Of a stretch of DNA of 64,000 nt, positions 15,401-30,400 are shown in pieces. Numbering within the stretch: position 1 is the stretch's first letter; every line of letters begins with the position of its first letter. The DNA comes from Siphlonurus alternatus (lineage: Eukaryota; Arthropoda; Insecta; Ephemeroptera; Siphlonuridae): contig OX463785.1 in the NCBI GenBank assembly GCA_949825025.1, forward strand, positions 18,663,971 through 18,727,970, given 5' to 3'. A program made the position numbers and the translations under genes. The notes beneath the pieces are model-generated. The model saw only the letters and a program-made list of their open reading frames with translations. It was not told the DNA's origin and made no database searches.

Positions 15401-18400
15401 TTCTTAGAATTAGGCTATCATGCAATACAGGTTGTTATCGGTACAACGAGATAAGAAAGTAGCCTTTACCTCTGCATTGAAGTTTAACCCCATTTGATTG
15501 CCGTATTGTTTATGTATTGTGGCTGCTACAATGTTCGAAGAAATATAACTATGAAATTTACAAGTGCGTGCGTGACAATATTATATTTCTAATGGTGAGA
15601 GCGAGTGAATCTAAAGAATACTTTAAAACGTGTGGCGTATATGTCTATTTTATTTGAGCTGCATGCAGTTCTTAAAACAAAAAATTTATTAATTTAACAA
15701 AAACATAATCAAATAGTAATTAAGTAACAGAAATGGGGAGTGTTTTATAAAAACAACAGATTCTACAATGTTTTTATAAGGTATGTACGTATACTGTATA
15801 TGATTACATTTTAAAGTTATTATTTTTTCCCTAATTAATTTATTTTTAAACAGCGCTTGAAAGATATTAGGTCACAATATTAATATTTATTATAAGTTTA
15901 GTTTTTTATTTTTCTTTTTGAAAAATTAAAATTAATTTCATTAAAATTAAAAATATCATCTCGTCACTAAAATCATCTTTATTTTGCGCAAAACTAGATG
16001 TGCTCAAAATTTTGCTCCAAACCCGAAATAAAATATCATTTCGACTTTTGCTCAAACCGCGATGCGCAGAACTAGTTTTGCTCAAAATGAAATGCGCCAA
16101 AGCCGAAGTAGAATCTCATATCGGCTTTGGCGCATTTCGATTTGAGCAGATCTAGTTTTGTTCAAAATGAAATGCGCCAAAGCCGAAAAAAAAACTCACT
16201 TCGGCTTTGGCTCATTTCGTGATGCGCAGAACTAGATGTGAGCATTTTTTTCGGCTTTTGCCCGAATTCGGCTTTGGGTGCTAACATATACACTAACTGT
16301 ATGCAAAATAACAAGTGTATTTTCAGATGGCCGAGATTAAAGCGGGTCGACCTCTCTTCGCCGGCTGTGGGCCGGTCATCCAAACAGCGGGTTCGGTCCG
16401 GTTTCTAGAAAGAGAGCCGGTGGAGATCTTGGAGGAAGGCTCGTACGTCCACAAACCGGCCCTGCTGGGCTCTAATAAGCATGAGGGAACGATGGTATAC
16501 GCATGTAAGCTTTGCTCTCTCACTCAAAGTATAACTATAGAACACCCCATAGACAATGCGAAGATTTTGATGCACATGTTAGAAATTTTTACTAGCAGTA
16601 TATTTATGTTTAATAATTCTTTTTTGAAAACAGATTATTCCGAAAACAGTTTTATTTTGGTATTTTTTAATACTGTAATTTACTTAACATATTATAATAA
16701 TTCTAATAGTAGGGGATACAAACCAACAATTCATTTGATTCGGTATCATACTCTAATTTCATGATAAATGTATATATTAAATTTGAATTTTTATTAATAA
16801 ATAAAATTTATTAATATTATTTAGTAATATTTTTATTTAATCCAACTAAAATTTTTCATTATTTTTATTGAAACTAATATTAAATAATAAACTTTATTTT
16901 TATTAATGAATTTAATTTTTTTGTAAAAAAAACTCTCTATTAAAATTTAATTATAATTTACCTAGAAGAATTAATTATTTAGTAATAAGAAATGAAGTAG
17001 TTAGTTATAGTTCTGTTCTGTTGTTTGCAATGTATCAAAATAAAAACTCCCAATATTATTAAATCGTTAATATTTAACAAAATGTTGAAAATTTGCCGAT
17101 TTGTTCCAGATCTTTACAAGTTTTATCTGGAAGCAAATGGACTATTAGAGGATGAGACATATTTTAAACGAGAGTTTTTTAGCACGCGCTTTAAAGGGAC
17201 ACGAATACTGGGTAATGCATACTTGTGGGGACATCTGGGCTTTTGATGGGACATGAGCCAAAGTCCCCACAAAAGCAGGGGACATTGTTCGATCAGACAG
17301 ACTTGTGGGGACATAGTTTTCGATTGGGGCTTTCTGGGGGGACAGGTAAGTGTCCCCTTAAATTCCACTGACAACTGATGAAATAAGCTAATGTTCATCG
17401 ACAACTTGTGATATTAGGGTTTTGGATGGAAAAATAAGAGGGTTCATAAAATGTCCAAGGCATGGCGCCTCTGTCAATTCCTGAAGAAAATAGCTTTCAA
17501 CGCCGTATTTATGCCCCATAGATGGCATTAGTCTTAGAACACGACCTGAGGATGCCACCAGATACTGTCCGAGCTACAGCCGCTTCAGTGGTCGGCCCTG
17601 CGATGGTCCCCACAAAAGCAATAGAGCACAACAAATTTATCCCTCAATCAATCACCACTCAATCATGCACATGTCAGGTGAAACATGTTGTGACTGAAGT
17701 CATGTTGTGGGGACATAGTCGCTTAAATAGTCAATGGTTACAAATACTTCAGAGTGAACTTTGATTCACCAAGGTAGAGACCCCACAAAAGCTTTTAGTG
17801 ACAATTCGATCATGTTAATTGCCAGGTGAGACACGTTGTCACTTAAGCCATGTTACGGGGACATGGTCCCTTCAAAAGTCAGTTATTGATTCACCAAGGT
17901 AGAGACCCCACAAAAGCTTTTAGTGACAATTTGATCATGTTAATTGCCAGGTGAGACACGTTGTCACTTAAGCCATGTTATGGGGACATTGTCCCTTAAT
18001 AAGTCAAGGGTTTTAAATTCTTCAGAATGAACATTGATACACCAAGGTAGCGTCCCGGCCCACAAAAGCGTTTAGTGACAATTAGTTCATGTTAATTGCC
18101 AGGTGAGATATGTTGTCACTTAAGCCATGTTATGGGGACAATGTCCCTTTAATAACAAATTCATCAGAGTGAACTTTGATTCAACAAGGTAGAGACCCCA
18201 CAAAAGCTTTTAGTGACAATTTGATCATGTTAATTGCCAGGTGAGACACGTTGTTACATAAGTAATGTTATGGGGACATTGTCCCTTTAATAGTCAATAG
18301 TTACAAATTCTTCAGAGCGAACTTTGATTCACCAAGGTAGAGACCCCACAAAAGCTTTTAGTGACAATTTGATCATGTTAATTGCCAGGTGAGACACGTT

Positions 18401-27400: not shown

Positions 27401-30400
27401 AACCGACCATGCAGTCGAGGCTCTGAGTTGTGCCCGATTAATTTTGTGGGGACACTCTTGCTTTCACGTACACAATGCTAGTGACGTTGAGCACCTGAAA
27501 ATCTAGGCAATCAATTTATCGCAGAGAAACGATCCGTACTTTGTCTTCGTCTAATTGTTTACCTTGAGTTGTGAGCAAGTTCATTTCTGGGGACACGTGT
27601 CCCTTCAAAGCGTTTCAGCCGGCAACATTTTGTTTCACAAAAAGTTGTGGGAAGGTACGCTTTAAGGGGACATTTCAGTAGCATTTCCTTTCTACTTCGT
27701 ATGCACTTTTTTGCTTCCCCTGTCTTTTTTTGAGCTGCACTTAAAAAATTGTGGAGTCCTTTTTATTTCACCTGGGCGGCGACAATTTTTTCTAAAAGTG
27801 CCGGTAAGGCTTTTTGAGGTCTACCGACCATGTACAACTCATTGCGAAAAGAGTTGTGGGCAAAGTTGCTTTCAAGGAACAATTTTAAATCATTTTCTTT
27901 TCATGTCTTGTTTAGGTTTTTGCTTCCCCTTTCTTCTGTTGCAGTAAATTTTATCTACTGACTTTTACATGGACACTGTCTCCATAACATTATATAAGTC
28001 ATAACGTGTCTTACCTGGCAATAAAATGATTGATCTGTCGCTTAAAACTTTGGTTGGGATCCTTTAATCAAATTTTTGTAATCAAAGTTCATTTTGAATA
28101 AATTGTTACGTCTGTATTTGAAAGGGACAATGTCCACAGAACCTTGCTTATTTCACAATGTGTCTGATTTGCTAATCATATTATTGGTCGAGTTGTGCCT
28201 AGAATCTTTTGTGGGTACTCTACATTGGTGAATCAAAGTTCATTCTGAATAAATTGTGACCACTGATTTTTAATGGGACAATGGGACATAACATGGCTTA
28301 AGTGACAACGTGTCTCATCTGGCAATTAACATGATCGAATTGTCACTAAAAGCTTTTGTGGGGTCTCTACTTTGGCGTATCAAAGTTCACTCTGAAGAAT
28401 TTGTAACTATTGGCTTTTAAATTACATTGTCCCCATAACATGGCTTAAGTGACAACGTATCTCACCTGGCAATTAACATTATCGAATTGTCACTAAAAGC
28501 TTTTGTGGGGTCTCTACCTTGGTGAATCAAAGTTCACTCTGAAGAATTTGTAACTATTGACTATTAAAGGGACAATGTCCCCATAACATGGCTTAAGTCA
28601 CAACGTGTCTCACCTGGCAATTAACATGATCGAATTGTCACTAAAAGCTTTTGTGGGGTCTCTACCTTGGTGAATCAAAGTTCACTCTGAAGAATTTGTA
28701 ACTATTGACCATTAAAGGGACAATGTCCCCATAACATGACTTAAGTGACAACGTGTCTCACCTGGCAATTAACATTTTCGAATTGTCACCATAAGCTTTT
28801 GTGAGGTCTCTACTTTGGTGAATCAAAGTTCACTCTGAAAAATTTGTAACCCATGACTTTTAAAGGGACAATGTCCCCATAACATGGATTAAGTGACAAC
28901 GTGTCTCACCTGGCAATTAACATGTTCGAATTGTCACTAAAAGCGTTTGTGGGGTCTCTACCTTGGTGAATCAAAGTTCACTCTGAAAAATTTGTAACCC
29001 CTGACTTTTAAAGGGACAATGTCCCCATAACATGGGTTAAGTGACAACGTGTCTCACCTGGCAATTAACATGTTCGAATTGTCACTAAAATCTTTTGTGG
29101 GGTCTCTACCTTGGTGAATCAAAGTTCACTCTGAAGAATATTAACCACTGACTATTAAAGGGACAATGTCCCCATAACATGGCCTAAGTCACAACGTGTC
29201 TCACCTGGCAATTAACATGATCGAATTGTCAATAATAGCTTTTTTGGGGTCTCTACCCTGGTGAATCAATAACTGACGTTTGAAAGGACAAAAGGGACAA
29301 TGTCCCCATAACATGGCCTAAGTCACAACGTGTCTCACCTGGCAATTAACATGATCGAATTGTCACTAAAAGCTTTTGTGGGGTCTCTACCTTGGTGAAT
29401 CAATAACTGACTTTTGAAGGGACCATGTCCCCATAACATGACTTAAGTGACAACGTGTCTCACCTGGCAATTAACATGATCAAATTGTCACTAAAAGCTT
29501 TTGTGGGCCGGGACGCTACCTTGGTGTATCAATGTTCATTCTGAAGAACTTGTAACCCCTGACTTTTTAAGGGACAATGTCCCCATAAGTACATGGCCTA
29601 AGTGCATGACAGCGTGTCTCACCTGGCAATTAACATGATCGAATTGTCACTAAAAGCTTTTGTGGGGTCTCTACCTTGGTGAATCAATAACTGACTTTTT
29701 TAGGGAAAATGTCCCCATAACATGGCTTAAGGCACAACGTGTCTCACCTGGCAATTTACATGATCGAGTTGTCACTAATACTATTGTGGGGACCCTAACT
29801 TGGTGTCCCCATAACATGTCTTTAGTCACAACATGTCTATTGTCCTTTTAAAAGTCCTTTTTGAATTAGAAAAGACCCCTGGCGCGACCTGGTGGAATTT
29901 TCGTGAACTCGGTGTACAAGCTTCGTGTCCTCACATTTTACCGAGCCGACAACATCCCTGAAATGTCGTATGTCTCCATTTCTGAGTCTCCTGCTTAAAA
30001 GTTTATTACGAAAATTATCGGATTCGATTAGTTTACCTGTCAGGTACCCCTGATATCATTTTCAGCCTTCTAGCATCATTATTAAGCAATGTCCCTTGTG
30101 ATGTGAACGAGTGACAACTGTGTCCTCGAAAAAAAGCCGCCATTTTAAGTTGTTGCTTCATATTTCCATGTCCCCATAAAGCGCCTGCTAGAAACAGGGA
30201 GTTTACGAACTTTCTTCTGGATATTTTCCGTAAGTATTATCGTTGATTATCAATATTATTGTATGGTATGTAAATATATAATTAATAAGCTATTATTTTC
30301 ATTTATAATCCTATTCTTTTTACTGTTGGTGAATTGAAGCACGTTGCATATTTTGGTATCACATCTGTTACTAGTGCCAAAAATTGAATATTCACTTCAA

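Follow-up and report, generated by a model that had tools for sequence, protein, structure and literature searches.

Origin of the insert in gene 2

How does a block of satellite DNA come to lie inside a coding exon? The question arises in a 64,000-nucleotide stretch of Siphlonurus alternatus DNA (contig C8:18663971-18727970; "the window" refers to this whole stretch), in which an exon of a gene, gene 2, is split by about 13 kb of mostly tandem repeats. The original prediction proposed that satellites were mobilised here as a single giant non-autonomous unit, and this is supported by 23 two-ended copies between different flanks and two empty sites. The spread of satellite arrays from one chromosome to another has long been a puzzle; here, arrays of up to 34 kb have moved whole, and recently. 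Because this element has exact ends and a defined target, satellite spread becomes directly testable.

At both junctions the word GAGTTT is present as predicted (17172-17177 and 30199-30204). When the two exon halves were joined with a single GAGTTT, the 93-nt open frame was restored, collinear with an intact exon of the neighbouring gene 3. The rejoined exon is 77% identical in amino acids to the gene 3 exon, whose peptide, DLYKLYLEPNGLLEDEKYFQREVTNFFLDFF, was aligned to it. Read onward from the left half, the gene 2 exon runs into a stop codon within the insert, and a GTAAGT splice donor starts at 30230, after the right half. A gene is thus interrupted by a block that routine annotation might label as a tandem repeat and not as a transposon.

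Copies in the genome

The genome searched comprised 455.7 Mb in 102 contigs, and the counts of element-end matches are lower bounds. At least 37 left-end and at least 27 right-end matches were found elsewhere with other flanks, all on contigs C1 and C7-C10 and none on C2-C6 or C11-C102, an apparent skew that reflects either an incomplete first-pass search or a chromosomally restricted family. Pairing of left and right ends by position and strand yielded 23 copies with both ends among the matches listed (11.5-34.5 kb), and 14 left ends and 4 right ends were unpaired among them. Specifically, 17 pairs belong to a young group (13.0-34.5 kb, 347 kb in total) and 6 to an older subfamily (11.5-27.9 kb). 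The same array layout was seen in all 7 of the 23 copies whose interior was read, namely the window copy, five young copies and one old copy.

The unique ends of the young copies are nearly free of differences. Only 10 private substitutions were counted in 13,940 bp of unique ends from the 17 copies, 8 of them in 7,480 bp (first 440 bp) and 2 in 6,460 bp (last 380 bp), and no young copy differed from the majority sequence at more than 8 positions in the left end. At the sequence level, these comparisons show a family that has been mobile recently. The arrays diverge more. In the window copy, 12 full 413-bp units were recognised, of which each of five further young copies has at most one in identical form. 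Two sister copies (34.5 and 25.4 kb) had 23 of 35 and 10 of 13 of their recognised units in common; the anchor used for recognition missed some units. Outer 1.5-kb segments, which reach into the 148-bp arrays, were 94.3-99.8% identical to the window copy in 7 left ends and 93.5-99.9% in 13 right ends. Judging from these values, array length and content change faster than the element ends.

The two sister copies also have a 3.3-kb insertion in common, which was read in L049 (about 3155-6435); L063 has a stretch that matches it in length and position. The insertion was considered as a gene of the element and rejected, being AT-rich with a longest open frame of 100 amino acids. Inspection by eye found inverted GGACGAAATACCCCC-type end repeats and a flanking 9-bp direct repeat, ACTTTGTCT; this repeat and the lack of a long frame mark the insertion as a nested, foldback-like transposon. 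Elsewhere, L068 contains two right-end fragments of 175 bp (4186-4360 and 6326-6500) that lie 2,140 bp apart and have the same right flank; a host segment containing a right-end remnant has apparently been duplicated in tandem.

Long arrays are hard to assemble, and an assembly artefact at both junctions was therefore considered. The same tips recur at 23 unrelated flank pairs, the exon joins in frame and empty copies of two sites exist, all of which makes such an artefact extremely improbable. Array lengths may be inexact in the assembly.

Target and empty sites

The left tip reads A^GTTTTTTAGC in young copies and A^GGGTATT in the older subfamily (the caret marks the junction), and the right tip reads CAGGGA^GTTT. 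Across the 23 pairs, the left flanking base was A in 21, T in one and G in one, and the right flank was GTTT in 19, GTTG in 2 and rearranged or shortened in 2. One of the last two is L007/L025 (C7:13003203-13018832), in which roughly 590 bp from the left flank is found again, inverted, on the right with 99.8-100% identity.

The original prediction interpreted GAGTTT as a 6-bp target-site duplication (TSD). A conventional TSD of 5 or 6 bp, made by a transposase with a strong preference for AGTTT, would suit the presence of AGTTT on both sides in 12 of the 16 young pairs that are intact, as well as its single occurrence in the young empty site. However, the leading G is not general, and in the remaining 4 of the 16 pairs the two supposed duplicates differ, whereas simple arithmetic at the measured divergence gives about 0.1 changes. 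Both GTTG targets (L002/L018 and L031/L024) retain GTTT on the left, so that the target was not copied there. Where the target has another base than A in front of GTTT (T^GTTT in L030/L012, and G^GTTT), A is nevertheless present on the right side. The older subfamily has no duplication beyond an ambiguous A. We therefore reject the 6-bp TSD and regard a conventional TSD in general as very unlikely.

One empty site was found for each subfamily. The young one lies in the window itself (38206-38210), where the repeat that hosts a 16.7-kb element at another locus is present without it (Table 1); the site reads CCAA^GTTTCTTAGG, with AGTTT once and 98.5% identity on both sides. In the older subfamily, the element L043/L027 is inserted in a palindromic host repeat as GAGCTA^GGGTATT...CACAGGGA^GTTTTCGAG, and the empty site reads GAGCTA^GTTTTCGAG without a gap in the other L027 arm and in two L037 stretches. 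The cut in this older site falls beside an A, itself ambiguous, and ahead of GTTT. More distant copies of the repeat (L046, L048 and L068) also lack GGG at this junction. Taken together, the four mismatched pairs and the two empty sites, with a single AGTTT or without a gap, show entry into A^GTTT without TSD, the repeat of young copies being in part the element's own left GTTT tip beside a pre-existing A^GTTT target. Because the apparent duplication is the element's own tip, a transposase with a conventional TSD fits poorly. As the junctions also show, the target is asymmetric and is used in one orientation.

Architecture of the insert

The features of the window copy are collected in Table 1. 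That the insert is nearly all satellite without a visible protein proved correct: tandem arrays make up nearly its whole length, and the longest open frame has 93 amino acids. The left and right 148-bp arrays, inverted relative to each other, are 80-86% identical across 1.4-1.9 kb, and the central array grows to about 60 units in other copies. The imperfect terminal inverted repeat (TIR) that had been described is real, at 26 bp (22 of 26 identical) instead of 27 bp, and its score of 32 compares with a maximum of 22 among 2000 shuffles. The G+C content is 40% in the insert versus 29-30% in the host DNA.

The word GGGACA/TGTCCC occurs 138 times in the insert, versus a shuffle mean of 3.8 and 9 occurrences in the remaining 51 kb of the window. 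It is spaced at about 93 bp throughout the three arrays and is often palindromic (38 pairs at most 4 nt apart), and the TIR ends in the same word. We infer that it is a putative binding site of the moving enzyme. In addition, GGGAGTT is found at 22079-22085, between the left and central arrays, as if the left part had once been a separate element. A search of a plasmid collection gave no match.

Table 1 Features of the interrupted locus and of the mobile element in the window
Feature	Position	Strand	Remarks
Mobile element	17174..30200	+	GTTTTTTAGC ... CAGGGA; 13,027 bp; no TSD; bounds from 23 pairs and two empty sites
Left unique end module	17174..17640	+	about 0.47 kb; nearly identical across 17 young copies
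TIR, left arm	17176..17201	+	2 nt from left end
Left tandem array	17675..22016	+	148/125-bp units
Central tandem array	22115..27832	+	413-bp unit, 13.9 copies
Right tandem array	27957..29780	-	148-bp unit; inverted relative to left array
Right unique end module	29780..30200	+	about 0.42 kb; terminates in CAGGGA
TIR, right arm	30169..30194	-	6 nt from right end
Interrupted exon of gene 2, left half	17109..17173	+	last base is the target A
Interrupted exon of gene 2, right half	30201..30228	+	first bases are the target GTTT
Homologous intact exon of gene 3	39929..40021	+	93 nt; collinear with the gene 2 exon
Empty copy of the repeat carrying the 16.7-kb element C8:3479429-3496144	38081..38534	+	junction 38206^38207

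Left-end-only copies and the mode of transfer

Among the 14 left-only matches, two (L038 and L078) continue into array-like sequence and the other 12 stop after 65-282 bp. In 5 of these 12 truncated ends (L039, L040, L074, L075 and L077), GGGAGTT starts close to the stop, from 4 nt ahead of it to 6 nt beyond it, for which P is about 2e-10 at the window's own rate of GGGAGTT. The break in L077 falls exactly at an element-internal GATGGGA. We read the GGGA^GTT truncations as early stop signals that were used, which would suit rolling-circle transfer; deletion after insertion is a possible alternative source of them.

The absence of a TSD, the asymmetric target used in one orientation, one essential end and a loose other end are together best fitted by HUH rolling-circle transfer. 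Tentatively, and with somewhat less than even confidence, we propose that the element, one copy of a giant non-autonomous satellite family, is moved by a HUH (Helitron-like) enzyme encoded elsewhere. Such an enzyme, acting in trans, would nick at A^ on the left tip and peel off one strand. Transfer would stop at the short right signal (CA)GGGA, or sometimes at an earlier GGGA, and the freed strand would be joined into A^GTTT. If the GGGACA words spaced through the monomers are the binding site of the enzyme, this would explain how satellites became the body of the element. Five matches to Helitron_like_N were found in the genome, one of which, at C6:1842905, lies in a 2066-aa open frame and is possibly an intact Helitron.

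Several observations weigh against the rolling-circle proposal. Seven of the 12 truncated left-only copies lack a GGGA^GTT end, although one of them (L072) terminates in the similar GACAGA-GTTG. No GGGA^GTT tip was found in 2.5 kb inside the 2066-aa Helitron frame and 3.5 kb downstream of it, the Helitron's own ends not having been located, and an incomplete search for an autonomous relative found no enzyme gene with the element's termini. The 3' hairpin of the window copy is at chance level (4-bp stem, z=0.42; 127 of 200 shuffles fold at least as well). The target is neither the A^T of Helitrons nor the TT of Helentrons. Moreover, long inverted arrays are commoner in foldback DNA transposons, and the excess of AGGGAGTTT in host DNA described below could consist of excision scars, and these would not be expected from a replicative mechanism.

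A tyrosine recombinase of the Crypton type could also move the element, as a circle that recombines with the target through a short core, either AGTTT or, in the older subfamily, AGGG. Joined ends would place two inverted arms around an asymmetric core, and wherever the 5-bp repeat is mismatched, the difference falls at the outermost base of a side, which is what a crossover within GTT would produce. Terminal direct repeats of 4-6 bp are described for fungal and stramenopile Cryptons (PMC3212892). Core identity is, however, seemingly unneeded, as the old subfamily has just A in common with its empty site, and it was on account of this site that a recombinase with an AGTTT core was demoted. Moreover, copies exist that lack the right arm but have a GGGA^GTT end, and the Crypton-related family DUF3504 was detected at a single locus, as three pieces inside some 2 kb (CryptonI proteins were not part of the search). 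We consider this mechanism rather unlikely.

Tip-plus-target words in host DNA

A set of 98.8 kb of host DNA was compiled from the window outside 17172-30204 and the flanks of L002-L048. The word AGGGAGTTT, which combines the right tip and the target, occurs 17 times in this set versus 0.5 expected by base composition, an approximately 34-fold excess, and GGGAGTTT occurs 23 times versus 1.3 expected. The contexts of these sites look unrelated. In the window alone, the excess also holds against 7-mers made of the same letters (15 occurrences, where these average 2.5 and the next-highest reaches 7). When 8-mers were ranked with an order-6 Markov model, AGGGAGTT was not in the best twelve, because its 7-mers are equally enriched. 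A local search for repeats with and without GGGA covered 45 distinct contexts and gave no informative pair. The AGGGAGTTT excess may represent scars or minimal insertions; alternatively, the word may be an unrelated one of the host, matched secondarily by the element. If it is the element's footprint, the host genome has been touched far more often than the copies show.

Excision scars (A + GGGA + GTTT) at host AGGGAGTTT sites would be left by a DDE transposase that moves a foldback element by cut-and-paste without TSD. The inverted tandem arrays and terminal inverted repeats suit such an element, as does the AGGGAGTTT excess, with no common upstream sequence visible. Nevertheless, an asymmetric target used in one orientation is unusual for DDE enzymes and counts against this explanation. 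No pair of sites with and without GGGA was found in this small data set, and scars extrapolated from 98.8 kb would far outnumber the copies seen. Additionally, the foldback element Tetris is described as making TSDs of 8-10 bp (PMC4079207). A DDE foldback origin is thus unlikely.

A further possibility, which we hold to be quite improbable, is a new transposition system in which monomers carrying the enzyme site form 11-35-kb units that enter A^GTTT without duplication and leave tens of thousands of A-GGGA-GTTT marks in the genome (a number extrapolated from 98.8 kb; scars or minimal insertions). One family would then have dispersed satellites and also introduced a short word into the host genome.

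Comparison with known elements

Among the closest parallels to this element are the HINE/DINE-1 group and the oyster Cg_HINE, non-autonomous Helentrons that are described as dispersing satellites by transposition (PMC7492417, PMC4067079). As described there, they also have a non-coding satellite-like core between short end modules and no TSD, and their subterminal inverted repeats may have a counterpart in the TIR. They differ in a TT target instead of A^GTTT, in a 3' palindrome where the stem of the present element is at chance level, and in their "short arrays", compared with 11.5-34.5 kb of almost entirely satellite DNA here. The imperfect 26-bp inverted repeat here lies 2 nt and 6 nt from the ends, where the corresponding figures described for mite HINEs are 2-4 nt and 38-60 bp. 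Unlike HINE, this element also has two array types, one of them in inverted copies. The tips and flanks on both strands do not conform to the 5'-TC ... CTRR-3' between A and T of canonical Helitrons.

Tetris of Drosophila virilis is described as likewise an element that combines inverted repeats with internal tandem repeats (about 220 bp), is non-coding, has no autonomous copy found and is a source of satellite DNA (PMC4079207). Three complete copies of it are described, versus 17 near-identical two-ended copies here, and its 8-10-bp TSDs have no counterpart in the present element. Unlike Tetris, this element has a satellite array as its middle. Because it differs from Tetris (TSD) and from Helentrons (TT target, 3' palindrome) in the defining features tested, the element was assigned to neither.

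Among Cryptons, those of fungi and stramenopiles may resemble this element in their short terminal direct repeats (AGTTT in most young copies here, reduced to one A at the empty site of the older subfamily), whereas animal Cryptons are reported to lack terminal repeats, in contrast to the 26-bp inverted repeat here (PMC3212892). Unlike a Crypton, this element encodes no recombinase, and its older subfamily seemingly has no need for a common core. Helitron2 and FoHeli are similar in having asymmetric TIRs and a specific short target (TTTT^T or C for Helitron2, TNAT^A for FoHeli1/2 and A^GTTT here); evidence for circular intermediates is reported for them and, unlike what is seen here, terminal hairpins in several subgroups and coding members (PMC5148889). 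A Maverick/Polinton was rejected, as the insert lacks open reading frames and a TSD.

A literature search, which was not exhaustive, found no element of this kind. Mobilisation of satellites as such is not new, as Tetris and the oyster HINE demonstrate; what is new is the size, the near-total satellite content and the A^GTTT target.

The neighbouring esterase genes

Gene 3 was identified as a carboxylesterase from its upstream exons (PF00135, E=1.4e-90, 296 aa). Searched alone, its 92-aa C-terminal piece, which carries the homologous exon, had no match in Pfam. By homology to gene 3, gene 2 is a carboxylesterase gene as well. The best match of the neighbouring esterase peptide (55% identity) was a record named for the mayfly Ephemera danica that is self-labelled "UNVERIFIED_CONTAM", followed by damselfly (45%) and cockroach (42%) sequences. 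Upstream of the disrupted exon, a 616-bp inverted duplication with 98.7% identity was observed (14284-14899 and 15678-16292).

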